Assembly: GCA_020402745.1 (NCBI GenBank)
Contig: JADBYZ010000013.1
Location: forward strand, 244,863-308,862
Origin: Phenylobacterium sp.
GTDB lineage: Bacteria; Pseudomonadota; Alphaproteobacteria; Caulobacterales; Caulobacteraceae
Direction of reading: 5' to 3'
DNA length: 64,000 nucleotides
Shown here: in pieces, positions 12,082 to 57,034 of the stretch
How positions within the stretch are numbered: the stretch's first letter is position 1
Layout: each line of letters begins with the position of its first letter
The notes under the pieces: model-generated
What the model was told of the DNA's origin: nothing
The model's input: only the letters and a program-made list of their open reading frames with translations
Database searches by the model: none
Program-made: the position numbers and the translations under genes

Positions 12082-12573
12082 TCAGTCGCCGGCGCGGGTG
12101 AAGCCGAAGGCGGCCTGGAGGGCGGCGAGGTCCAGAAGGTCCCGGTCCCTTGGCGAATAGCCCGTCTTCAGCCGCCAGAGGATCTCGGCGGGCAGGCAGT
12201 CCACGGCCCGCCCCGCAATCACGCCCCGCCCGTCAAAGGACCCCGCCGGATAGGCCGCAGCCGGATCGTCCGGGTCCATCACCCCGCGCCCCTCCGCATC
12301 CAGGCGAAAGAGGTGCAGGTCGATGCGCCGGCCGCCACCGTCCCTGTAGACGGGGTTCCAGGCGGGCCCGCCCGCCTGCCGGACCAGGCCCAGCCCGGCC
12401 AGCAGGGCCTCCAGCGCCAGCCCGTCCTCCACCCGCGCGGCCAGGTCGAGGTCCTCGTGCGGCCGGGTCTGGCGACCGAGGACCGCATCCACCGCCCAGC
12501 CGCCGTCCACCCAGACGGGCAGCCCCTGCGCCGCGCAGGCCTCCAGGACTTCCAGGACCTCGTCCGCCGTCAT
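12082..12573 (-). CDS. small nucleotidyltransferase (lincosamide/aminoglycoside adenylyltransferase-like)
   Basis: A 163-residue protein of the nucleotidyltransferase fold. The diagnostic region is VWVDGGWAVDAVLG (20-33) followed by RPHEDLDLA (38-46), giving the GG...D-x-D metal-binding pattern of LinA/LnuA- and ANT(2'')-like adenylyltransferases. A third acidic strand, RRIDLHLF, is also present. The length is right for this family. Members transfer AMP to antibiotics, but many chromosomal homologues have unknown substrates, so resistance should not be assumed. It is divergent from the ParB-like gene at 12681. Confidence 0.75.
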   Translation of the reverse strand: MTADEVLEVLEACAAQGLPVWVDGGWAVDAVLGRQTRPHEDLDLAARVEDGLALEALLAGLGLVRQAGGPAWNPVYRDGGGRRIDLHLFRLDAEGRGVMDPDDPAAAYPAGSFDGRGVIAGRAVDCLPAEILWRLKTGYSPRDRDLLDLAALQAAFGFTRAGD

Positions 12574-12680: not shown

Positions 12681-13031
12681 ATGTCCTCTCCCCAGACCCA
12701 TTCCCACACCGTTCCCGGCGGCCGGGGTCACGGGTTGACCGAGAAGCTCTGGGCCGCCGCTGCGGGCCTTCCCGTCTTTCGGGTCGCCATCGCCGACATC
12801 CCTGAGTTCGACCAGGACTGCTGGTTCCGGGGTCGGGCCCCCAGCCTGAGGCAGGTGGCGGACCATGTCGCCCGGATACAGGCGGCGGACCTCGCCTATC
12901 CCATCATCTTCTCCTCAGACGGCCGCCTGATGGACGGGGGCCACCGGATCGCGCGCGCCTGGATCGAAGGGCGGACAGAGATCGACGCCGTCCGTTTCGA
13001 GGTCGATCCGGAGCCCGAGTTCGTTCGCTGA
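12681..13031 (+). CDS. small ParB/sulfiredoxin-fold-like protein
   Basis: A 116-residue protein starting at MSSPQTHSHTVPGG. The frame is open much further upstream, but that part overlaps the divergent nucleotidyltransferase and looks non-coding. The core reads RQVADHVARIQ-AADLAYPIIFSS-DGRLMDGGHRIARAW-EGRTEIDAVRFE. It resembles the ParB N-terminal/Srx fold, where a D(G)xHR box binds nucleotide. No DNA-binding domain follows, so this is a stand-alone domain of unknown role. It ends about 40 nt before the first phyH' remnant and marks the left edge of the repeat-built region. Confidence 0.65.
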   Translation: MSSPQTHSHTVPGGRGHGLTEKLWAAAAGLPVFRVAIADIPEFDQDCWFRGRAPSLRQVADHVARIQAADLAYPIIFSSDGRLMDGGHRIARAWIEGRTEIDAVRFEVDPEPEFVR

Positions 13032-13072
13032 TCCGCCGGATCGCCCCGCCACCCCCCAGCCCCCCAGCCCCC

Positions 13073-13208
13073 TCGGCGAGGCCGACGGTGTCCCCGGCGA
13101 CCTGTGGCTGATGGACTTGCGGGCTCTGCACACCGCTGCACCTAATCCGTCAGCGGCGCCGAGGCTGATGATGACGTGGCGGTTTCTGAGGGAGGGGTGA
13201 GGACGTCA
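13073..13208 (+). pseudogene. phyH' remnant A (3' end of a phytanoyl-CoA dioxygenase-like gene)
   Basis: About 130 bp that match the 3' ends at 14547, 16618 and 18915. In frame it reads GDLWLMDLRALHTAAPNPS, then APRLMMTWRFLREG and a TGA at 13198-13200. Relative to copy C it lacks 10 codons (30 nt) between two CCC triplets, and everything upstream is missing. The homology ends at the TCA six bases past the stop. It cannot encode a functional enzyme. Confidence 0.8.
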
Positions 13209-13242
13209 GCGGGCGCCCGAGGCGGGTCTTGCGTCTTGACGG

Positions 13243-13278
13243 AGATCGGCGGAAAGATCGGCGGAGAGATCAGGCGAT
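13243..13278 (+). repeat. three 12-bp tandem repeats ahead of fic1
   Basis: AGATCGGCGGAA, AGATCGGCGGAG and AGATCAGGCGAT follow one another directly, 50 nt before the fic1 start. Such short-period repeats between a gene boundary and a start codon can be binding sites for a regulator. No function is shown by the sequence itself. Confidence 0.7.
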
Positions 13279-13327
13279 ATGTGACCAACCCATTCTGATA
13301 TCTAGAGTCTCAAGGACTCAACGCGGC

Positions 13328-14542
13328 ATGAAAGATCGGCAGGAAACACGCTTCGGAGAGCCCGTCAGCCGGATCGAGCCAACCCTGCTCGACCGCGTCC
13401 CGGCGAAGGTCCTGGATGTCATGGCGGAGTTCATCGCCCGGGCGACAATCCTTGGCGACGCCCTGCATCCGCGCACCGCCCAGCAGCTGGCGTCTCTCGT
13501 GCGCGTCATGAACGCCTACTACAGCAACCTGATCGAGGGTCATGTCACCCGGCCCCGCGACATCGAGCGCGCCTTGTCCGGGGACCTGGATGTCGATGAG
13601 GGCCGGCGAAACCTGCAGATCGAAGCCGCCGCCCATGTGAGGCTGCAGGAGAGCCTCGATCAGAGTTTCGCCCAAGGGCAGCTGCCGGATCCCGTATCGC
13701 CCGACTTCCTCAGGGACTTGCACCGCCGGTTCTACGAGGGGGCCTCTGAGGAGATGTTACGCATAAAGTCCGATCACCGTTCATTCCTCATGACGCCGGG
13801 CCGGTTCCGCAACGATCCCGGAGAGGACGTCGTGGTGGGGCGCCACCAGCCTCCCTCGAGTGAACGCGTACAGGCCTTCATGCAGAGGTTTGCGGAACGA
13901 TACGCCCACACCAAACTGAGCACGTCCGGGAGAATCCTCGCCGTCGCAGCCGCCCATCACCGCTTCAATTACATTCACCCCTTCGCCGACGGGAATGGGC
14001 GGGTAAGCCGCCTCATGAGCCACGCCATGATCCAGCACGCCGGGCTCGGCGCCCATGGATTGTGGTCGGTCTCGCGTGGGCTTGCGCGGGGTCTTGAGAG
14101 CCGGGGAGAATACAAGCGGATGATGGACCACGCAGACTCACCCCGACAGGGCGACCTGGATGGTCGAGGAAACCTTTCCCTGTCTGCATTGGAGGACTTC
14201 ACCGAGTGGTTCCTGAAAGTCTGCCTGGACCAGGTGAACTTCACGTCGAGCCTGTTTGACCTGCCAAACCTGAAGCAGCGGCTAAAGCTCTATGTCGACC
14301 GGTCGGGGAGGCTCAAGCCAGAGGCCTACCTCCTCCTGGAAGAGGCTGTGCACCGGGGGGAATTCGCCCGGGGCGATGCTGACCGGATCACCCGCCTGCC
14401 CGAACGCACCGCCCGAGACGTCCTCGCACAGGTGATCGCAGAGGGACTGCTCGGTTCTGATACGCCGAAGGGTCCGGTGTCGTTGCGTTTCCCCAGTCAC
14501 ACCCTGGACCTGCTGTTCCCGCAGTTGTTCCCGGCCGCCTGA
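13328..14542 (+). CDS. Fic family protein 1
   Basis: A 404-residue Fic-domain protein, expected to transfer AMP (or another nucleotide or phosphate group) to target hydroxyls. The catalytic motif is HPFADGNGRVSR from His217. The N-terminal inhibitory helix motif SNLIEG (residues 66-71, Glu70) matches the class II (S/T)xxxE(G/N) rule, so the enzyme carries its own brake. A C-terminal helical part with a winged-helix-like end (residues 320-400) may bind DNA or the target. The ATG at 13328 was chosen because upstream in-frame residues are arginine-rich filler. It lies between phyH' remnants A and B; remnant B begins five bases after its stop. Its target is unknown. Confidence 0.88.
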   Translation: MKDRQETRFGEPVSRIEPTLLDRVPAKVLDVMAEFIARATILGDALHPRTAQQLASLVRVMNAYYSNLIEGHVTRPRDIERALSGDLDVDEGRRNLQIEAAAHVRLQESLDQSFAQGQLPDPVSPDFLRDLHRRFYEGASEEMLRIKSDHRSFLMTPGRFRNDPGEDVVVGRHQPPSSERVQAFMQRFAERYAHTKLSTSGRILAVAAAHHRFNYIHPFADGNGRVSRLMSHAMIQHAGLGAHGLWSVSRGLARGLESRGEYKRMMDHADSPRQGDLDGRGNLSLSALEDFTEWFLKVCLDQVNFTSSLFDLPNLKQRLKLYVDRSGRLKPEAYLLLEEAVHRGEFARGDADRITRLPERTARDVLAQVIAEGLLGSDTPKGPVSLRFPSHTLDLLFPQLFPAA

Positions 14543-14546
14543 CCCG

Positions 14547-14716
14547 CCCGGGGTCCAGGTCTTCACCTTTCTGTCGAGGTGGTGGAGCTGACCGGCGCCC
14601 CCCGGCGACCTCTGGCTGATGGACATGCGGGCCCTGCACACCGCCGCGCCCTATGCGTCCGCGGCGCCGAGGCTGATGATGACGTGGAGGTTTCTTCGGG
14701 AGGGATGAGGGCGTCA
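14547..14716 (+). pseudogene. phyH' remnant B with internal deletion
   Basis: Matches copy C from GGGGTCCAGG onward, but 199 bp are missing between two TCG triplets (16777 and 16976 in copy C). One C is also inserted in the run near 14600. Translation across the deletion reaches TGA within a few codons. The 3' part (LMDMRALHTAAPYAS, RLMMTWRF) is kept. The stop is at 14706-14708, with the TCA boundary at 14714-14716, where it abuts the Sel1 gene's stop codon. Confidence 0.8.
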
Positions 14717-15031
14717 GCAGCCCTTGATGCCGGCCATGAAGCAGGCGGTCGAGAGCTTCTGCGACTTGACCAAATCCTCGGGACTCATGAATTCCGCGAG
14801 GGTCTGCCTGGCCACCGCCACCTGTCCGTTGGAGCCGAGCCCGTAGCCGCGCGTCCCGGCGAGGTTGATCCACATGTCGGCGCGGACATAGTCCCGCGGC
14901 AGGCCGTGCTCTTTGGAGTAGCCGGCGCCCAGCTGGTACTGGGCCAGGCCGCTTCCCGCCTTGGCGGTTCGGCGGAACCACTTCATCTCCGTCTCGTGGT
15001 CGACCGCCGTCGCCTGACCCTCGTGGTGCAT
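14714..15031 (-). pseudogene. Sel1-repeat protein, probably truncated
   Basis: A 105-residue frame with about one and a half Sel1-like repeats: AKAGSGLAQYQLGAGYSKEHG, then DYVRADMWINLAG, the classic tetratricopeptide-like helix pattern. The open frame continues upstream of the ATG without a start signal or signal peptide. It runs into the AT-rich promoter region of fic2, so the N-terminus is probably missing. Its TGA is supplied by the TCA boundary of phyH' remnant B. Sel1 proteins are protein-interaction scaffolds; this copy is likely decaying. Confidence 0.55.
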
Positions 15032-15090
15032 GAGGAAGCTGGCGGCTCCAAAACCAACAAGTCCTCTCCATATGGAAGCCAGCTTGCCTA

Positions 15091-15109
15091 TGTGGAAGAA
15101 TCTTCTACA
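15091..15109. promoter_or_regulatory. 19-bp near-perfect palindrome upstream of fic2
   Basis: TGTGGAAGAATCTTCTACA has two 9-nt arms around a central A with one mismatch, and the outer A/T pair extends it by one base on each side. It lies 69 nt before the fic2 ATG in an AT-rich stretch. This fits an operator for a dimeric repressor. No gene for such a repressor is adjacent. Confidence 0.6.
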
Positions 15110-15178
15110 TGTGATAGACAGTTAGCGCATGGAGCCAGTTTACTCCCATACGCACTTTAGGATTCCAAAGGGACGAAC

Positions 15179-16324
15179 ATGAGCGACCGGGGCGGAAAGT
15201 ATGAAGCCCAGCTTGCAGGCTACAAGGCGTTCGTCCCCGCTCCGCTTCCGCCCGTTGACCCACCTTTCAATCATACGGGCGAGATCGCGCGGCTTCTGTC
15301 AGAGGCCGACCGGGCTTTGGCGGAACTGAAAGGCTCCACCCGCACCCTGCCGAACGCTGACCTTTTCGTCGCCATGTATGTGCGTAAGGAAGCTGTTCTC
15401 TCAAGCCAGATCGAGGGAACCCAGTCATCGCTGGACGACGTTCTGCGGGCCGAAGCCGAACTGAACTCACCCGGCGCCCCGCGAGATGTGGGCGAGGTTC
15501 TGAACTACATCGCCGCCCTGAACTACGGGCTCGCTCGCCTAAAAGAACTCCCGGTGTCTGGCAGGCTCATCAAAGAGATTCACGAGCGGCTGATGCGCGG
15601 CGTGCGCGGCGGGGAGAAAAGTCCCGGCGAGTTTCGGACGGGGCAAGTGTATATCGGCCCCATGGGGGCCTCGGTGCGGGACGCCACCTTTGTGCCCCCG
15701 CCTCCTGAACACGTCCCGACCGCTATCCATGATCTCGAACGCTTCATCCACGAGGAGCGTGATTTGCCGCCGCTGGTCAGGATTGGCCTCGCGCATGCTC
15801 AGTTCGAAACGGTCCACCCGTTCCACGACGGCAATGGCAGAACAGGGCGCCTGCTCATCACCTTCCTCCTTTGCGCGGAAGGCTTGCTCGATAAGCCCGT
15901 GCTCTACCTCTCCTACTTCCTTCGCGCCCATCGAGCGGAATACTACGAGGCCCTCCAAGCGACGCGTGATCGTGGCGACTACGAGGGTTGGATCAGGTTC
16001 TTCCTTACCGGTGTCGCCGAGGTTGCACGGCAAGCGGCCGAGGTGGCGGCCCAGATCATCGACCTCCGTGAGGGCCACCGCACGATGATCGGCGATGCCT
16101 ACGACCGGGGAAGCAAGCACGCCTTTGCCCTGCTCGATTTTCTGTTCAAGCGGCCTGTGGTCACGGCAAACGAGGTGCGCGACAGCCTGGGCATTTCGGG
16201 CGGCGGCGCGCGCAATCTCATCAACCGCTTTGTGGAGTTAGGCATCCTGATCGAGATCACCGGCTACGAGCGCAACAAGGCGTTTGAATACGCTCCTTAC
16301 ACCGCTCTCTTCGGAGACCTTTAG
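15179..16324 (+). CDS. Fic family protein 2 (SoFic-like)
   Basis: A 381-residue class II Fic protein, predicted to AMPylate target proteins. The canonical motif HPFHDGNGRTGR starts at His213. The N-terminal inhibitory motif SSQIEG lies at 75-80 (Ser75, Glu79). The flap region TFVPPPPEHV is typical of the Shewanella SoFic group. The C-terminus (about 320-375, VTANEVRDSLGISGGGARNLINRFVELGIL) is a winged helix-turn-helix, suggesting autoregulation or DNA contact. Length matches the family. AAGGGA sits seven bases before the ATG. Codon use is less GC-rich than in core genes, consistent with acquisition. It is only distantly similar to Fic protein 1, so this is not a tandem duplication. Confidence 0.92.
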   Translation: MSDRGGKYEAQLAGYKAFVPAPLPPVDPPFNHTGEIARLLSEADRALAELKGSTRTLPNADLFVAMYVRKEAVLSSQIEGTQSSLDDVLRAEAELNSPGAPRDVGEVLNYIAALNYGLARLKELPVSGRLIKEIHERLMRGVRGGEKSPGEFRTGQVYIGPMGASVRDATFVPPPPEHVPTAIHDLERFIHEERDLPPLVRIGLAHAQFETVHPFHDGNGRTGRLLITFLLCAEGLLDKPVLYLSYFLRAHRAEYYEALQATRDRGDYEGWIRFFLTGVAEVARQAAEVAAQIIDLREGHRTMIGDAYDRGSKHAFALLDFLFKRPVVTANEVRDSLGISGGGARNLINRFVELGILIEITGYERNKAFEYAPYTALFGDL

Positions 16325-16391
16325 GGCCTCGGCCAAGCAAACCCGAACCGGCCCACATAATTGGTGTTGTAGAATCGGCGGGATACGGTTC

Positions 16392-16428
16392 CCCAACGTT
16401 GAAACCAAAATTTTTCAACGATGTTGGG
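16392..16428. other. imperfect hairpin between fic2 and tRNA-Arg copy 1
   Basis: The outer arms CCCAAC/GTTGGG and inner arms GTTGAAA/TTTCAAC form a stem with a three-base bulge. It lies 70 nt after fic2 and five bases beyond the 3' end of tRNA copy 1. There is no U-tract on either strand, so it may end transcripts weakly or be a recombination scar. Confidence 0.45.
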
Positions 16429-16433
16429 AAGAA

Positions 16434-16510
16434 TGGCGCGCCCGGAACGATTCGAACGTCCGACCCTCAGATTCGTAGTCTGATGCTCTATCCAGCTGAG
16501 CTACGGGCGC
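16434..16510 (-). tRNA. tRNA-Arg(ACG), copy 1
   Basis: A 77-nt cloverleaf with encoded CCA. The acceptor stem GCGCCCG/CGGGCGC is fully paired, the anticodon loop CTACGAA gives anticodon ACG, and the T loop is GTTCGAATC. It is identical to copy 3 over the mature tRNA. Homology with copy 3 stops 28 nt upstream inside the -10 element (AACAAC in place of AACCTA on the plus strand), so this copy probably lacks its own promoter. Confidence 0.9.
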
Positions 16511-16538
16511 GCACCGCCTTGCGGCGAGGGCGCGGAAC
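16434..16538 (-). repeat. 105-bp direct repeat DR1 (tRNA-Arg plus 28 bp upstream)
   Basis: The block is shared with 18715-18819 and 20928-21032. It runs from the tRNA 3' end to GCGGAAC. In copies 1 and 2 the similarity continues for another ~580 bp through phyH'. In copy 3 it ends. The block behaves like the duplicated attachment-like unit of the array. Confidence 0.8.
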
Positions 16539-16617
16539 AACGACATCGAGGAGCCCGTCTGCCGAACCCAGGAATCTGCAAACATCTTTGTGTCGGCGGA
16601 GGTGCGCGGATAAGCAT

Positions 16618-17109
16618 GACCGAGTTCCCCAGTTGGCGGCTCAATGCGCGTTCGCAGCACCCGGCGGCGTCAGTCGGCCCCGGCTCCTCTGGAGCCTGCC
16701 CGCCATCCTCTGGCACACCGACCTTCCCCGCACGCGCGAGGCCGGCTGCCCCGGGGTCCAGGCCTTCACCTTCCTGTCGCCGGTCGGCCCGGGCGCGGGC
16801 GGAACCCTCGTCGCCGCCGGCTCGCACCGGCTGCTGAATGACAAGGGCGAGCTGAGGTCGAAGGCCGCCAAGGCCCGCCTGCGCGCCCTGCCGTCCTTCA
16901 CCCACCTGATGGACCCGGCCCACCCCGACCGCCCCATCGCCCCCGGCCCCCTGGGCGAGGCCGACGGCGTTCCCATCGAGGTGGTGGAGCTGACCGGCGC
17001 CCCCGGCGACCTCTGGCTGATGGACATCCGGGCCCTGCATACGGCTGCGCCGAATGCGTCAACTGCGCCGAGGCTGATGATGACGTGGCGGTTCCTGAGG
17101 GAGGGGTGA
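16618..17109 (+). pseudogene. phyH' copy C, 5'-truncated phytanoyl-CoA dioxygenase-like gene
   Basis: The open frame (about 164 codons) keeps the C-terminal half of a PhyH-type Fe(II)/2-oxoglutarate dioxygenase: the HTD of the HxD iron motif in ILWHTDLPR, GVQAFTFLSPVGPG, GGTLVAAGSHRLL, and the distal histidine in RALHTAAPN, ending LMMTWRFLREG. The first 80-100 residues expected for this family are absent. The frame upstream runs into the tRNA, and no start codon with a ribosome site is visible. The sequence is about 90% identical to copy D and the protein is well kept, so some selection or recent gene conversion is possible. Confidence 0.75.
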
Positions 17110-17114
17110 GGGCG

Positions 17115-17246
17115 TCAGAGCAAGGTGGCCGCCGTCATGGCCATGCAATGCGGTCGAAGCTCTTTCTCGGGACCCTTCCGAAAGCCGAGTGAGCGCATCA
17201 GGGCGCCCGTGATCTCGCCCCCCTGATCGTTCCCCGGTTGTGGGGG
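17115..17246 (-). pseudogene. 44-codon coding-like remnant downstream of phyH' copy C
   Basis: A minus-strand open segment ends with TGA at the TCA boundary, the same position where the Sel1 frame ends beside remnant B. It reads EITGALMRSLGFRKGPEKEL followed by RPHCMAMTAATLL. Part of the nucleotide sequence (GGCCATG...CGGTCGA) resembles the 3' end of the Sel1 gene at 14.74 kb. It has no start codon and is probably the tail of the gene that originally converged on phyH. Confidence 0.3.
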
Positions 17247-17266
17247 TCACGAGACCCGATGTCCAC

Positions 17267-18547
17267 TCAGGTGGGTAAAGTTGGCCGAGGGGTGGGGCGG
17301 CCGGCGTCACTCAGATCTGCGCCGCTATCATGATCACCTTCTCTCCCACCCTCCGCCAACGCTGCGCAAACGACGGCAAGGAGTCTGCCGCGCTCCTTCT
17401 CGGAAAGGTCTGCCGGATTGGGTACGTAGACAACGTTTTCGATGAGACCCTTCGCCGTTGCAGTTTGATCCGGCGCGAGCGCTCGCAGACTGGTCGCCCC
17501 TCGCGTGGCGTCGAAACCGGCGGCGCGCAGGCGATCTATGACCCCAACCGGATCGGAGGCGCGAACGGGCATGAGCCAGAACGCTGAGGTCTGAACACAG
17601 CCACCTACCTGGGCGTTCTCTGGCAAAGCATCCACGAAGGCGCGACCGATTCGGCGACGAAACTCGGGATCGGGCGACGCCGCAATTCGGCGCGCCATCA
17701 GCGAGACCAGTCGTCTCGGCGGCTGTTTCCTTATCGCCTCAAGTAGGTCCTGCCCGCCAAAGCCACGAGCCGCGCCGCCAATGACCGAGTCAGGGTCACG
17801 CCCTGAGGCGGCGATCGCCCTTATCACCCCTGCATAAACCCACGGTGTGCTCGCAAGCTTCAGAATCAAATACTTCACGGCCCGGGCGCGGAACCATCGC
17901 TCCTTGAGAAGGTCATAAGTCTCGAGCCGCTGCCGGACGCGCGCCGCCAAATCTGGATCGCGAAACACAGCGACCCCACCACCGAGGGCGGTCCTGCGCT
18001 TGATCGGTCCGAAGCTAAAGAGTGTCACATCGGCGTCTGACAAACCTTGATACCCGTTGCCTGAGAAGGCCTGGGCGGCGTCCTCGACAACGAGCACGCC
18101 ACGCTTCCTGAGTTCGGCTGCATCCCAAACTTCGCTGACGCCGCCATACAGTTGCGTCACGACACACAATCTCGCCCCGCATCGCCCTTGGGCGTTCAAC
18201 AAGGTGTCGGGCTCCGGCGCCAGGGTCGCCAGGTCGAGATCAACCGCTTCGATGGTCAGATCATGCGCCCGCACGATGTCGGCCATGTTCTGGATGTTGA
18301 TGCCGGACATCAGGACACTTGACTGCGGCGGCGGCCCCACTTCGCTCAGCAGGGCGTCGAACACTGTCCGCACGGACAGGCCGATCACCACGCGCCCGGG
18401 TGCGAAGTACTTCTCGACCACGGCTTCGGCGACCCTTGTGTCGTCCCTTGACACGGGTGCTCCCATCGCCGCCCAAAGGAGATCGCCCCAACCGATATCG
18501 AGTTTCAAGCGACTGTGCATCAGCTCTATCCAGCGCAGCAGGGACAC
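17267..18547 (-). CDS. DegT/DnrJ/EryC1/StrS-family PLP-dependent aminotransferase
   Basis: A 426-residue sugar-aminotransferase-fold protein. The conserved EDAAQAFSG block (155-163) and the Schiff-base Lys183 in FSFGPIKRRTALGGG are present, together with the NxQN-type region near 85. Family members transaminate keto-sugars for cell-surface polysaccharides or antibiotics. There are no neighbouring sugar genes here, so the pathway is unknown. The C-terminal 30 residues are charged and proline-rich and may be poorly conserved. It is the only gene between phyH' copy C and tRNA copy 2, facing right to left. Codon use is less GC-rich than the core genome. Confidence 0.82.
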   Translation of the reverse strand: MSLLRWIELMHSRLKLDIGWGDLLWAAMGAPVSRDDTRVAEAVVEKYFAPGRVVIGLSVRTVFDALLSEVGPPPQSSVLMSGINIQNMADIVRAHDLTIEAVDLDLATLAPEPDTLLNAQGRCGARLCVVTQLYGGVSEVWDAAELRKRGVLVVEDAAQAFSGNGYQGLSDADVTLFSFGPIKRRTALGGGVAVFRDPDLAARVRQRLETYDLLKERWFRARAVKYLILKLASTPWVYAGVIRAIAASGRDPDSVIGGAARGFGGQDLLEAIRKQPPRRLVSLMARRIAASPDPEFRRRIGRAFVDALPENAQVGGCVQTSAFWLMPVRASDPVGVIDRLRAAGFDATRGATSLRALAPDQTATAKGLIENVVYVPNPADLSEKERGRLLAVVCAALAEGGREGDHDSGADLSDAGRPTPRPTLPT

Positions 18548-18714
18548 TCAGCCCTGCAGACCAGCATAACGGTAAGCCCGCAACACCATGAAGTCGCGTC
18601 GATCGCTTCTTCAGATAGGCGCGCGCCCGCGCCGGGGCGCTTGGATGTGGCCGAGGAGGGTGCGCCCTGCGCAGCGGTGCAGGACCAAATTCCTTCCGCT
18701 TAGCTAGAAGAAAA

Positions 18715-18791
18715 TGGCGCGCCCGGAACGATTCGAACGTCCGACCCTCAGATTCGTAGTCTGATGCTCTATCCAGCTGAGCTAAGGGCAC
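18715..18791 (-). tRNA. tRNA-Arg(ACG), copy 2, decayed acceptor stem
   Basis: Identical to copies 1 and 3 except for two bases at the 5' end, giving GTGCCCT in place of GCGCCCG. This creates a U-G wobble at position 2-71 and a U-C mismatch at 7-66, while the 3' strand and CCA remain intact. The promoter-proximal bases are also lost, as in copy 1. Probably a non-functional duplicate. Confidence 0.75.
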
Positions 18792-18819
18792 GCACCGCCC
18801 TGCGGCGAGGGCGCGGAAC
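18715..18819 (-). repeat. 105-bp direct repeat DR2
   Basis: Second copy of the tRNA-plus-upstream block. It continues into phyH' copy D. The whole unit 18715-19397 parallels 16434-17115 with roughly 90% identity. Confidence 0.8.
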
Positions 18820-18914
18820 AACGACACCGAGGAGCCCGTTGGCCGGACCCAAGAATCTGCAAACATCTTTGTATCGGCTGGGGTCGCGCGGATAAGCATG
18901 ACCACGTCCCCCAC

Positions 18915-19391
18915 ATGGCGGCTCAATGCTCGTTCTCAGCACCCGACGGCCTCAGCCGGCCCCGGCTCCTCTGGAGCCTGCCCGCCATCCTCTGGCACAC
19001 CGACGTCCCCCGAGCGCCCCAGGCCGGCTGCCCCGGGGTCCAGGTCTTCACCTTCCTGTCGCCGGTCGGCCCGGGCGCGGGCGGAACCCTCGTCGCCGCC
19101 GGCTCGCACCGGCTGCTGAATGATGAGGGCGAGCTGAGGTCGAAGGCCATCAAGGCCCGGCTGCGCGCCCTGCCGCCCTTCGCCCGCCTGATGGACCCGG
19201 CCCACCCCGACCGCCCCGCCGCCCCCGGCCCCCTGGGCGAGGCCGATGGCGTTCCCATCGAAGTGGTGGAGCTGACCGGCGCCCCCGGCGACCTTTTGCT
19301 GATGGACATGAGGGCCCTGCACACGGCCGCGCCGAATGCGTCGGCAGCGCCGAGGCTGATGATGACGTGGCGGTTCTTGGGGGAGGGGTGA
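18915..19391 (+). pseudogene. phyH' copy D, 5'-truncated phytanoyl-CoA dioxygenase-like gene
   Basis: A 158-codon frame from ATG at 18915 (MAAQCSFSAPDG) to TGA at 19389-19391. It has the same C-terminal dioxygenase half as copy C: HTD in ILWHTDVPR, AAGSHRLLNDEG, RALHTAAPNASAAPRLMM. An N-terminal domain is missing and there is no Shine-Dalgarno at the ATG. The substitutions relative to copy C are mostly conservative, so the protein may be expressed as a fragment, but I treat it as a remnant. Confidence 0.7.
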
Positions 19392-19608
19392 GAAGATCAG
19401 GGGCGCCAGAACCGGTCCATCTATCGCCAAAGCGCCGGGAATCCGGTCAATCGCCTTCCCACCCTTCGAGCGCAAATGGATTGAGGAACTGTCGCCCCCA
19501 AAGAAACCGACGGTCCACCTCATTCAAGCCCGCTTCTTGCCCTTACCTCAGCTTCCCGGAGCCACCGGTTTCCCCATTACGAAGCCTGTGGCATTCATCG
19601 TCTGGTAG
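19390..19608 (+). other. coding-like remnant without a start codon
   Basis: In frame with the TAG at 19606, the sequence reads ...FPPFERKWIEELSPPKKP, then VHLIQARFLPLPQLPGATG, then FPITKPVAFIVW. The residue composition is protein-like. There is no ATG, GTG or TTG with a ribosome site in this frame before the phyH' stop. It may be the severed C-terminus of an inserted gene. Confidence 0.3.
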
Positions 19609-19631
19609 GTCGTGTCGGAGGCTAGCATTCC

Positions 19632-20006
19632 ATGGATCAATCCCCGCCACGAGGCGACAACCGCTACCGTACCCACCGTTCAGTGAAGTGCTATGTTGCA
19701 GAACTGATTGTGGGCACCGGTGGCGCCACATTTTATCTGAACCAATCCGCAGAGCGCGTTATCCATCTTTTCCCAGGCGGCATCGAGAAGGTCGTTTACA
19801 GGACACGCTTCTATCCTTTGCTGCCAAGTGAGATGCTCGCCGAACTCGCCAAGTCTCACCAACGGCGCGGATGTATGGTTATGGTGGGAGGGAAAGCTCT
19901 CTACCCCGACGATACCGAGCAGTCATTCGTACCATTTCCGTTTATTGAAATTACGCCTCAGAGTGAGCGTTTACGCTTCGAGGCGATCCTCCGATCACGT
20001 GAATAA
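19632..20006 (+). CDS. hypothetical protein, first gene of a two-gene unit
   Basis: A 124-residue protein starting MDQSPPRGDNRYRTHRSVK. I do not recognise a family. It has a strand-rich centre (CYVAELIVGTGGATFYLNQS, then VIHLFPGGIEKVVYRTRFYP) and a PFPFIEITP motif near the end. No membrane segment or signal peptide is visible. Base composition is lower in GC than the core. The next frame begins within a few bases of its stop, so the two are probably co-transcribed and may act together. Confidence 0.6.
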   Translation: MDQSPPRGDNRYRTHRSVKCYVAELIVGTGGATFYLNQSAERVIHLFPGGIEKVVYRTRFYPLLPSEMLAELAKSHQRRGCMVMVGGKALYPDDTEQSFVPFPFIEITPQSERLRFEAILRSRE

Positions 20007-20011
20007 CGTCC

Positions 20012-20800
20012 TTGGCTTACAAAGACCGCGTTAAGGCAGCGCATTTAGGATGGATCATGGTGCCAACCGGAAAAACCTCCCCAGAACAGCTTCTCGCTCT
20101 GCTTCAGGCTGCTATCGAAAACGCACCAGCTTTCGACTCCCAAACGCCGCTCACTGATGAAGAGGTGCGATGGCTAGGCAGGGCAGATGCTTTGATAGAC
20201 GCTTCCGGTTTGCTGAGCGCAATCGCCAGTTTTAGGTCTGCGCGCCAGAAAATAGGAATTTATAATCTATTTAGTCGAAACGATCTTCTTTTACCTCTTC
20301 ATGACGCTTTCAGCCGAGTAGAGTTGCAAGTTCCGGCGTCAATGCGGGGCTCTTTTATTGCGGGCGGAGATACATGGAACGGGTATGCGGCTCTCGTAAG
20401 GTTTATGCAGACCGAATGTGAGGACCTTTTTATTATCGACCCTTATATCAATTCAGCTCTATTCATCGAGTTGGCGCCGCATGTGAAAGCGGAGGAGGGG
20501 CTGCGCTGCCTGACGGCCAAACGTGCAGAGAACCATCATGCCTTGCTAGCTGCGTCGCAGAAATGGGCAGGAGACCCGATCTCAAAAGCTATACACGTCG
20601 CGGTGCGATACACCCTGCCTGCCAACCTTCATGACCGACTAATCATCGTCGATCGTCGAGATGTATGGCTCGTTTCACAATCTCTGAAAGATATTGCGAA
20701 ACGCGCGCCAGCATCAATCTCGCGGGCAGAGCCAGAACTTGGACAACTAAAGTTACAGCATTACGAGAGCGTGTGGGAACGAAGCGATCAGTTGGACTAG
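20012..20800 (+). CDS. PLD-superfamily-like protein of unknown function
   Basis: 262 residues from a TTG at 20012; alternatively 247 residues from ATG at 20057, which has AGGA eight bases upstream and may be the real start. The C-terminal half looks like a phospholipase-D-fold domain. It has a strand LFIIDPYINSALFIEL, a core YTLPANLHDRLIIVD in which the usual HxK is HDR, and VWLVSQSLKDIAKRAPASIS in place of the GSxN strand. This HDR-type domain occurs in many uncharacterised proteins of defence-like loci. The N-terminal half is helical with no recognised motif. One PLD half only, so a dimer is expected if it is active. Lower GC than its surroundings. Confidence 0.65.
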   Translation: MAYKDRVKAAHLGWIMVPTGKTSPEQLLALLQAAIENAPAFDSQTPLTDEEVRWLGRADALIDASGLLSAIASFRSARQKIGIYNLFSRNDLLLPLHDAFSRVELQVPASMRGSFIAGGDTWNGYAALVRFMQTECEDLFIIDPYINSALFIELAPHVKAEEGLRCLTAKRAENHHALLAASQKWAGDPISKAIHVAVRYTLPANLHDRLIIVDRRDVWLVSQSLKDIAKRAPASISRAEPELGQLKLQHYESVWERSDQLD

Positions 20801-20927
20801 GCGCTCCAGAGCTAAAGATATGAGATTTAGAAGCTTGCACCATCGCTCACGGCACGCATCGGTCAAATCCGGCGAGATCCGAGAGCGGTATCGATCACCG
20901 TGGAGTGTCGTGGCTGACGAGAAAAAA

Positions 20928-21004
20928 TGGCGCGCCCGGAACGATTCGAACGTCCGACCCTCAGATTCGTAGTCTGATGCTCTATCCAGCTGAGCTACGG
21001 GCGC
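20928..21004 (-). tRNA. tRNA-Arg(ACG), copy 3, the likely functional gene
   Basis: A 77-nt tRNA with all arms paired and encoded CCA. It is the only copy with a full promoter upstream (21030-21058) and with six Ts directly after the 3' end on the transcribed strand. It borders the core genome to the right. Confidence 0.95.
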
Positions 21005-21032
21005 GCACCGCCTTGTGGCGAGGGCGCGGAAC
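20928..21032 (-). repeat. 105-bp direct repeat DR3 (right end of the array)
   Basis: Third copy of the tRNA block. Similarity to DR1 and DR2 ends at 21032, inside the -10 element. To the right lies unique core sequence. Confidence 0.8.
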
Positions 21033-21085: not shown

Positions 21086-22144
21086 TCAGCTGCGGCGGTC
21101 GCGCCAGGCGGGGGGGCCTTCGCCGGGGTTGGCGTCGGGCCAGGGGGTGGCTTCGAAGACGCCCCGGGCGACCGCGCGGGCCAGGGTGTCGGCGGCCAGG
21201 GCGCCCAGGCGGGCGAGGGCGGCGTCTCCGCCCTCCAGGGGCCGGCGGGCGGTGGAGAGGGCGAAGACCACGTCGCCGTCGAAGGGGGCGTGGACGGGCC
21301 GGATGGCGCGCGCGAGGCCATCCTGGGCCATGACGGCGAGGCGTTTGGCCTGGGCCGGGGTGAGGGCGACGTCGGTGGCGACGCAGGCGATCGTCGTGTT
21401 CTGGCGGGCGCCCGCCGGGGGCGGGGCCTTGGCCGGGCCCCACTGGCCGGGGCCGGCGCGCAGGCCGTCGAGGGGCAGGCCGCCGAACTCGCCGTCGATC
21501 TCGAAGGGGGCGGCCCAGAAGGTGCGGCCGTCGGGGGCCGTGACCGAGCCCCAGCTGTTGACGCAGACCAGGGCCCCCACGGCGCCGTCCGCCGAGAGGA
21601 CGGAGGCCGATCCGGTCCCGCCCTTCAGCCCGCCCGCCGCCGCGCCGTAGCCGGCGCCTGCCGTGCCCAGGGCGAAGTCGGCGTCGGCGGCGGCGCAGGC
21701 CCGCCGGCCCAGCTCGCGATAGGGCGGATCCTCGCCCCAGGCCTTGTCGCCGCCATTGGCGAGGTCGAAGAGGATGGCCGCGGGCACGACGGGCGAGGGC
21801 GGCACGCCCGGCCGGTCGGCGAGGCGGAAGCCCCGGCCCCGGGCCCCCAGCCAGGCCACGGCGCCGTCGGCGGCGGCCAGGCCCCAGACCGAACCGCCGG
21901 ACAGGACGACGGTGTCGACGGCCTCCACCAGGTTTTCGGGCGCCAGGGCGTCGGTCTCCCGAGTGCCGGGCCCGCCGCCGCGCACGTCCACGGCGCAGAC
22001 GGCCCGGGCCTCGGGCAGGATCACCGTCACGCCGGTGCGCGCGCCGGCGTCCTCCGCCTGGCCGACGGCGAGGCCGGGAACGTCGGTGATGAGGTTGCGG
22101 GGGCCGGGCGCCGGGTTGGCGCCGCCCTTGGAGGCGGCGCTCAT
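21086..22144 (-). CDS. P1 family (DmpA/NylC-like) self-cleaving peptidase/amidase
   Basis: 352 residues of the DmpA/OAT-like N-terminal nucleophile superfamily. The protein should cleave itself between Asn249 and Thr250 in the motif RQNTTIACVATDVA, as NylC does before its threonine nucleophile. Other conserved features are NLITDVPGLAVGQ at the start, the GVTVILPE strand, VLSGGSVWGLAAADG, and the glycine-rich YGAAAGGLKGG region. Natural substrates vary (beta-peptides, D-aminopeptides, nylon oligomers) and cannot be deduced. It overlaps the following minus-strand gene's stop by an ATGA junction. Confidence 0.88.
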   Translation of the reverse strand: MSAASKGGANPAPGPRNLITDVPGLAVGQAEDAGARTGVTVILPEARAVCAVDVRGGGPGTRETDALAPENLVEAVDTVVLSGGSVWGLAAADGAVAWLGARGRGFRLADRPGVPPSPVVPAAILFDLANGGDKAWGEDPPYRELGRRACAAADADFALGTAGAGYGAAAGGLKGGTGSASVLSADGAVGALVCVNSWGSVTAPDGRTFWAAPFEIDGEFGGLPLDGLRAGPGQWGPAKAPPPAGARQNTTIACVATDVALTPAQAKRLAVMAQDGLARAIRPVHAPFDGDVVFALSTARRPLEGGDAALARLGALAADTLARAVARGVFEATPWPDANPGEGPPAWRDRRS

Positions 22145-56119: not shown

Positions 56120-57034
56120 TCAAGCTCTCGGGTGAGCGCTCGCATAGGCCCGGAGCAGGGCCGCGGAATCCACCTGGGTGTAGCGCTGGGTGGTGGACAG
56201 GGAGGCGTGGCCCAGAAGCTCCTGGATCGACCTCAGGTCGGCGCCGGCGCCCAGCAGGTGGGTGGCGAAGGCGTGCCTCAGGGCGTGGGGCGTGGCGCTG
56301 GCCGGCAGGCCCAGCTGGCCCCGCATTCCCTGCACGGTCGCCTGGACATGGCGCGGCGATAACGGACCGCCCCGCCGGGCCCGGAACAGGGGCTCATCGG
56401 GCGAGAGGGCAAAGGGCAGGGCGTCCAGGTAGGCCTGCACGGCCTCAGCCACCCGGGGCAGGACCGGGACCCTCCGCATCTTTGCACCCTTGCCGGTGAT
56501 CCGCAGGGCCTCGCCCAGGGGCGCATCCCGGCGGCGCAGGGACAGGGCCTCGGAAATCCGCAGGCCACAGCCGTAGAGCAGGGTCAGGACGGCCTCGTCC
56601 CGGGCCGACTCCCAGGGGTCCAGATTTGCATCGAGCCCCGGTTCAGCGAGGAGTTCCGCCGCCTGGGCCTCTGTGACGGGCCTGGGGGCGGAGGGCCGGA
56701 CCCGCGGCCCCCGCACCAGGGCGAGGGCGGGGTTGGCGATCCCCAGCCGCCGGTCGAGGAAGCCGTGGAAGGTGCGGATCGCTGACAGGGACTGGGACAG
56801 GGAGCGCGGAGAGAGCGGCGTCTCGCCCTGGCGCAGTACGGCCAGCCAGGCCCGGATCTCTGCGGCGCTGATCCCGCCGAGGTCCTCCCCGGTCAGGGGG
56901 CCGCCCCTATGCCCCTCCAGGAAGGTCAGGTAGCGCCGGCCGATGAAGCCGTAGGCGGACAGGGTGCGGGGCGACAGGCGTCGCTCCTGCTCCAGGTGCT
57001 CCAGCCATTGGGCGAGGGCCGCACGGGCCTCCAT
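56120..57034 (-). CDS. xerC: tyrosine recombinase XerC
   Basis: A 304-residue tyrosine recombinase that resolves chromosome dimers at dif with XerD. The catalytic set is complete: Arg159 (GCGLRISEAL), Lys182 (GKGAKMR), His250 and Arg253 (TPHALRHAFATHLL), His276 (LGHASLSTTQ) and Tyr285 (RYTQV). The N-terminal SAM-like domain is usual. It overlaps the upstream DUF484 stop by one base, the conserved fsa-DUF484-xerC order. It is the only recombinase in the window but lies 35 kb from the tRNA array. Confidence 0.94.
   Translation of the reverse strand: MEARAALAQWLEHLEQERRLSPRTLSAYGFIGRRYLTFLEGHRGGPLTGEDLGGISAAEIRAWLAVLRQGETPLSPRSLSQSLSAIRTFHGFLDRRLGIANPALALVRGPRVRPSAPRPVTEAQAAELLAEPGLDANLDPWESARDEAVLTLLYGCGLRISEALSLRRRDAPLGEALRITGKGAKMRRVPVLPRVAEAVQAYLDALPFALSPDEPLFRARRGGPLSPRHVQATVQGMRGQLGLPASATPHALRHAFATHLLGAGADLRSIQELLGHASLSTTQRYTQVDSAALLRAYASAHPRA

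Follow-up and report, generated by a model that had tools for sequence, protein, structure and literature searches.

How do unrelated short genes come to lie between repeated copies of a gene end and a tRNA? The question is raised by a locus in a 64,000-nucleotide stretch of Phenylobacterium sp. DNA (contig JADBYZ010000013.1, positions 244,863 to 308,862; the whole stretch is termed the window). Here four blocks of cargo are set off by four 3′ fragments of one gene, phyH (phytanoyl-CoA dioxygenase-like in a previous sequence-only reading), and by three tRNA-Arg(ACG) genes. In order, the blocks are fic1; a sel1-like fragment with fic2; a DegT aminotransferase; and a gene for a 124-amino-acid protein with a weakly phospholipase D-like (PLD-like) gene. 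The window genome (G000) was compared with a sample of 101 genomes of the genus; codes in G and L denote the genomes and loci compared.

The array probably consists of alleles of several strains joined end to end at a hot spot, by one-sided homologous recombination together with unequal crossing-over. The hot spot itself is supported: in one clade of the genus, short accessory cargo is taken up where phyH and tRNA-Arg converge, between the stop codon of the former and the 3′ end of the latter. A search with the phyH protein of G007, at a threshold of at least 90% amino acid identity, finds intact phyH in six of the 101 genomes (G007, G109, G107, G106, G052 and G077), each time to the left of tRNA-Arg on the same contig. 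Five of these loci belong to Phenylobacterium and unclassified Alphaproteobacteria or Caulobacteraceae metagenome-assembled genomes (MAGs).

The alleles range from empty to complex. G107 is empty: a nucleotidyltransferase-like gene (NTase), intact phyH, 10 bp, one tRNA and the S58 peptidase gene. Single-cargo forms are those of G052 and G077, with a C5-methyltransferase, Vsr and an MvaI/BcnI-type nuclease in the phyH–tRNA gap (identified by a scan in G052 and judged from translated open reading frames in G077), and those of G075 and G076, with sel1′–fic2 flanked by a phyH 3′ remnant and a single tRNA. Double forms are those of G007 (phyH, tRNA, C39 exporter and HlyD protein, tRNA, S58) and G106 (phyH, integrase remnant, GAF and helix-turn-helix proteins, a tRNA disrupted by 10 inserted bases, GNAT, GFA, tRNA, S58). 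G109 has NTase, a small gene, a hydrolase-like gene, a PIN-like gene (weak, E 0.018), a second NTase, phyH, sel1′, fic2, tRNA and GNAT, at which the contig ends. Simpler intermediates of the G000 array thus exist. The sequence-only reading had suggested a search of relatives for an empty site with one tRNA-Arg and an intact phyH, and for other cargo at the same repeat ends. Both were found, the latter as restriction-modification, SoFic, GNAT plus GFA and C39 exporter cargo, and the pattern that would speak against a mobile or stepwise origin, an identical array everywhere and no empty site, was not.

Some of these loci deserve a word of their own. The three restriction-modification genes of G052 lie at L097 6829–9886. 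The G007 cargo between the two tRNA copies (L021 7850–11217) is a C39-peptidase ABC exporter with HlyD, of the bacteriocin-export type. At L094 71–4034 of G109 the NTase gene occurs twice with the small, hydrolase-like and PIN-like genes between, and cargo therefore also enters the hot spot's left flank.

Could the array be an artefact, with unrelated contigs joined at near-identical tRNA copies? The copies share 105 or more bp at 96–98% identity, and the relatives are mostly MAGs. However, G109 independently has the sel1′–fic2–tRNA–GNAT flank contiguous (94.4% identity over 2.1 kb), the junctions described below lie outside the tRNA, and the single-cargo form of G052 is on one contig. An assembly artefact is thus very improbable.

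The rightmost tRNA is the original one. In relatives, the tRNA, the S58 peptidase gene and a gamma-glutamyltransferase-like region are syntenic, which identifies copy 3 as the native copy. The pattern TTG-N18/19-CTA(G/A) is found upstream of the tRNA in 42 of 47 distinct upstream sequences from the loci compared; it is missing from five, namely those of the two internal copies of G000 and of the left-hand copy in each of G106, G109 and G007. The pattern may be a promoter, in which case the internal tRNA copies would be promoterless. The G109 tRNA is counted as internal because a GNAT gene follows it, the right end of that locus being beyond the contig. Among the matches listed for the genus, at least two matches over 95 of 111 bases occur only in G000, G007 and G106. 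Copy 2, which has two changes in the acceptor stem, scores 51.3 bits in Rfam and the other two 64.8 bits; the lower two copies have an intact sequence.

Four phyH 3′ fragments had been reported by the sequence-only reading, and alignment bears them out at about 13.04–13.20, 14.55–14.71, 16.66–17.11 and 18.94–19.39 kb. The breakpoints in phyH differ between fragments 1, 2 and 3/4, and the 3′ end is retained in each. Fragments 3 and 4 lie in a 700-bp repeat that begins with the tRNA; its units at 18713–19420 and at 16432 are 92% identical over 680 bp, far beyond chance. That reading was also right in counting three tRNA-Arg copies, but not in letting two of them abut phyH′: to the right of copies 1 and 2 are about 125 bp that stem from the start of a GNAT gene, its initial codons with the 5′ flank (80–81% identity over 158 bp to GNAT genes of G106 and G109). 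In units 3 and 4 GNAT′ is joined to phyH′ at the same point, marked by a short GCGGC-type match, and both units have a 24-bp deletion in phyH′. The junction therefore arose once in G000 and was later duplicated.

This raises the question of whether the whole array is a tandem duplication of phyH′–tRNA in place, followed by separate insertion or replacement of cargo in each copy. Segmental duplication, as already proposed from the sequence, does account for the GNAT′–phyH′ unit with its common junction and deletion. Fragments 3 and 4 (92.9% identical to each other, fragment 4 being 93.9% identical to phyH of G106) group together with phyH of G077, and their monophyly is not rejected (approximately unbiased test, p-AU 0.128). 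Duplication in place does not explain the other breakpoints of fragments 1 and 2, and to explain the exchange of entire cargoes it would need homologous replacement by DNA of other strains in addition. The G109 tandem, described next, is also at odds with it, and as an account of the array this alternative is quite unlikely.

The two NTase copies of G109 are 97.5% identical to that of G052 and 98.2% to that of G106, respectively, and only 93.2% to each other; a tree that makes them one clade is rejected (p-AU 2.65e-05). The copies thus come from different lineages. In G007, the leader of the left tRNA is nearest those of G107 and G106 (43 of 50 bases, compared with 39–40 or fewer for others), the right leader is nearest those of G000 and G077 (49 of 50, versus 45), and the S58 gene is nearest those of G106 and G107. 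An integrase that acts inside a tRNA is expected to leave the native leader at the right. The G007 leaders, with moderate support, appear to be recipient-type at the left and donor-type at the right, the reverse of insertion by a tRNA integrase. In G109 as in G007, the tandem resembles a fusion of alleles of separate lineages rather than a duplication in place.

One-sided recombination would operate as follows. DNA of another strain with the order phyH end–cargo–tRNA–S58 would recombine by homology at the tRNA/S58 side, and its other end would join, without homology, to sequence further left, be it where fic1 ends, in a tRNA leader or in a GNAT gene. The old cargo would be kept, a further copy of the tRNA or of the 3′ end of phyH would arise, and the new rightmost tRNA would take over the native promoter. 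The GNAT′–phyH′–tRNA unit would then have undergone repetition through unequal crossing-over as well as a change of cargo, such that units 3 and 4 would require both unequal crossing-over and allelic replacement. A dedicated recombinase would be unnecessary. We infer the one-sided step, its direction and the route of DNA uptake.

The retained phyH 3′ ends, the tRNA at the right, the varied left junctions and the mixed lineages all fit additions anchored at the tRNA/S58 side. Junctions inside phyH, inside GNAT and after fic1 have short matching bases at most, while the tRNA/S58 side is shared. Common att-like ends were not seen by eye at the cargo boundaries, which is also counted in favour of this mechanism, and no S58 pieces were seen between units. 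Growth from the tRNA side, as had been suggested from the order of the units, is consistent with this polarity. A bolder form of the proposal is doubtful: the array might be a recombinase-free cassette system in which the phyH 3′ end and the tRNA serve as portable homology arms, alleles being appended or swapped by RecA alone, with a functional, promoter-bearing tRNA at the far right and the promoterless copies as a dated record.

The phyH′ ends show a further regularity. All four copies have TGA, five bases and TCAG (at about 13199–13211, 14706–14718, 17107–17119 and 19389–19401); the spacing to TCA is thus five bases and not six, as first read. The empty site of G107 carries TGAGAAGAGAAAATGG where the G000 copies have TGA-N5-TCAG. 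The TCA that follows copy 2 serves as the stop codon of the sel1 fragment, and that of copies 1, 3 and 4 is beside other cargo. Beyond TGA-N5-TCAG, no motif common to the left cargo ends was found by eye.

Several points weigh against one-sided recombination. The proposed model does not account for the TCA after every phyH′ stop. Given the unrejected monophyly of fragments 3 and 4, duplication in place explains that part of G000 equally well. The G109 NTase test was picked after inspection of the identity matrix. Two of the genomes are draft MAGs: G109, which is 82% complete and whose locus is without the right end, and G106, with 6% contamination. The G007 leader evidence is only moderate, as it consists of a few bases. 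Finally, no donor of fic1, DegT or the PLD-like gene was found in the 101 genomes.

A second explanation is that small elements with a whole tRNA-Arg were integrated serially by a tyrosine recombinase, acting in trans or since lost. The tRNA-Arg is indeed a true integrase target elsewhere in the genus. Fragments of its 3′ end of 45–57 bases are found in at least 31 of the 101 genomes, although some may be contig ends. Out of 13 fragment-bearing genomes, four (G005, G054, G058 and G092) have an integrase match no more than 300 bp from the full-length tRNA, the end of the G005 gene being 27 bases from it, and four more (G096, G062, G115 and G056) have one within 1.5 kb of the fragment. In addition, G106 carries a degraded integrase piece adjoining phyH; it contains one stop and its score of 24.7 bits is under the cut-off. 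It is the only integrase found at the site in the close clade, the contigs of G107, G109 and G103 being short, which limits the absence there.

Against serial integration, only full-length tRNA copies are among the matches listed for the G000 locus, i.e. no att scar in the form of a 3′ fragment, and no such fragment is among the matches listed for ten close-clade genomes. Moreover, phyH′ is also repeated, which is not a product of tRNA integration; the G109 repeat involves the flank gene NTase and not the tRNA; and the left and right leaders of G007 are in the reverse of the places expected. A PF00589 search of G000 gave two matches, none of them in the array (the one on the array's contig is at window positions 56168–56611), in agreement with the original statement that no integrase is inside. 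Of the earlier proposal of a tRNA-targeted hot spot with a lost recombinase, then, the hot spot, the integrase target and a remnant in G106 are found, but whole tRNA copies are repeated in place of an att scar. Loss of a recombinase is a possible reading that ranks second to one-sided recombination; on its own merits it is unlikely.

Vehicles for the DNA were also considered. A phage or plasmid origin was rejected, as there was no match in 50,697 phage records and only one plasmid record matched, by tRNA-sized pieces that make up 3% of the query. Gene transfer agents are unsupported: the HK97 capsid family (PF05065) is present in one of nine clade genomes, G000 only. That gene (G000:C4:91422-92234, L143) likely belongs to a prophage or phage remnant. 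The ComEC family is found in 9/9 clade genomes but also in 10/14 controls and says little on natural uptake.

The features of the locus are listed below.

Coordinates of the array and its flanks in the window
Feature	Position	Strand	Basis or remark
NTase, left flank of hot spot	12082..12573	-	PF10706, 87.9 bits; left of phyH in G007, G107, G052, G077
Small gene, common to G109, G075, G076	12681..13031	+	blastn 85-88%; no Pfam family
phyH′ fragment 1, internal deletions	13036..13201	+	aligned to intact phyH of G077
fic1 (cargo)	13328..14542	+	PF02661, 57.5 bits; HPFADGNGRVSR
phyH′ fragment 2, internal deletion, begins just past fic1 stop	14547..14708	+	alignment to intact phyH
sel1-like fragment	14714..15031	-	PF08238, 22.6 bits, below cut-off
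fic2, SoFic-like (cargo)	15179..16324	+	PADLOC SoFic, 405.8 bits
tRNA-Arg(ACG) copy 1, putatively without native promoter	16434..16510	-	Rfam agrees
GNAT remnant (5′ flank, first codons), fused to phyH′ fragment 3	16539..16661	+	
phyH′ fragment 3, 24-bp deletion	16661..17109	+	
DegT-family aminotransferase (cargo)	17267..18547	-	PF01041, 37 bits
tRNA-Arg(ACG) copy 2, two acceptor-stem changes, putatively without native promoter	18715..18791	-	Rfam agrees
Second GNAT 5′ remnant, phyH′ junction as in first	18820..18943	+	
phyH′ fragment 4, 24-bp deletion as in fragment 3	18943..19391	+	
124-amino-acid protein (cargo)	19632..20006	+	no Pfam, NCBIfam or PADLOC family
Weakly PLD-like protein (cargo)	20051..20800	+	weak NCBIfam/PADLOC matches; one motif
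tRNA-Arg(ACG) copy 3, native position, putative promoter present	20928..21004	-	Rfam agrees
Peptidase S58 gene, conserved right flank	21086..22144	-	PF03576, 195 bits; syntenic with tRNA in relatives

The G+C content of the window is 69.1%, that of the array flanks 72.9% and 79.4%. The cargo is lower (62.0–63.7% for fic1, fic2 and DegT; 51.6–53.3% for the last two genes, the PLD-like gene having 51.6%), which points to foreign cargo lying between native scars. Homologues of fic1 are found in 8/101 genomes (best 66%), of DegT in 2/101 including G000 (52% in G092) and of the PLD-like gene in 2/101 (35% in G100). In this sample the best foreign matches for the three were never on that genome's tRNA-Arg contig.

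The cargo calls made from the sequence hold for both Fic proteins and DegT, with Pfam matches above cut-off; the Sel1 fragment stays under its cut-off, and the PLD-like assignment is weak. No Pfam family matched the latter protein, which has one HxRxxxxD motif and scores of 30.8 bits with NCBIfam VPA1262_N (cut-off 80) and 30.9 bits with PADLOC PDC-S05. The fic1 product scores 98.1 bits with the PADLOC SoFic model. The fic2 product retains the Fic motif and an SxxxEG motif. Among G000, G109, G076 and G075 it is 98–99% identical as protein and about 94% as DNA, which suggests conservation as under purifying selection.

The hot spot recurrently holds known defence genes: SoFic in G000, its 98–99% homologues in G109, G075 and G076, and the methyltransferase, Vsr and nuclease of G052. 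The defence use that had been surmised is plausible for SoFic and for the relatives' restriction-modification cargo, but unproven for the remaining cargo.

Hot spots for strain-to-strain exchange of defence genes usually reveal the present allele only. Here older additions stay in order, flanked by scars, and relatives have empty, one-cargo and two-cargo forms; the steps are thus readable and testable. If the proposal is true, a tRNA and a gene end can together collect defence-type cargo without a recombinase of their own. It is also a warning that tandem tRNA copies beside cargo are not necessarily integrase-driven islands.

How does the array compare with known systems? Genomic islands that target tRNA genes (integrative mobilizable, integrative conjugative and cis-mobilizable elements) and that grow by accretion use the tRNA 3′ end. 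The site is of the same kind, and true islands use this tRNA elsewhere in the genus. However, the G000 array has no integrase or listed att scar, and consists of 1–4 kb blocks with whole, apparently promoterless tRNA copies. Integron gene-cassette arrays contain ordered, unrelated small cargo and grow at one side. The G000 array resembles them in order, unrelated small cargo and probable growth from one side, but its repeats are formed by host genes. IntI or attC-like ends were not found in it, by a generic PF00589 search and with no specific search for attC.

The closest likeness is to the orphan immunity-gene arrays of the Vibrio cholerae type VI secretion system (Kirchberger et al., 2017; PMC5361080), a paper that also mentions integron cassettes. 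There, successive additions are anchored in a conserved stretch, an illegitimate other end is proposed, strings of older 3′ pieces are left behind, intermediates are present in other strains, and the repeats of any one genome are of differing strain origin. Tandem duplications by transformation are treated in another paper (PMC3784515). Older 3′ pieces and intermediates in other strains are common to both arrays, and probably also one-sided anchored additions; repeats of mixed descent are shown for the NTase of G109 but not for phyH′ 3 and 4 of G000. The Vibrio arrays are anchored in an effector gene and carry immunity genes (PMC5361080). The G000 array differs in being anchored by a tRNA together with the 3′ end of an unrelated metabolic gene, in having cargo that is unrelated between units, and in the repetition of the tRNA copies themselves. 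A literature search brought up no description of an array of this kind in Phenylobacterium. The tRNA/phyH-anchored form is new, whereas the model of one-sided recombination, likewise argued from intermediates, has already been proposed for the Vibrio arrays (PMC5361080).

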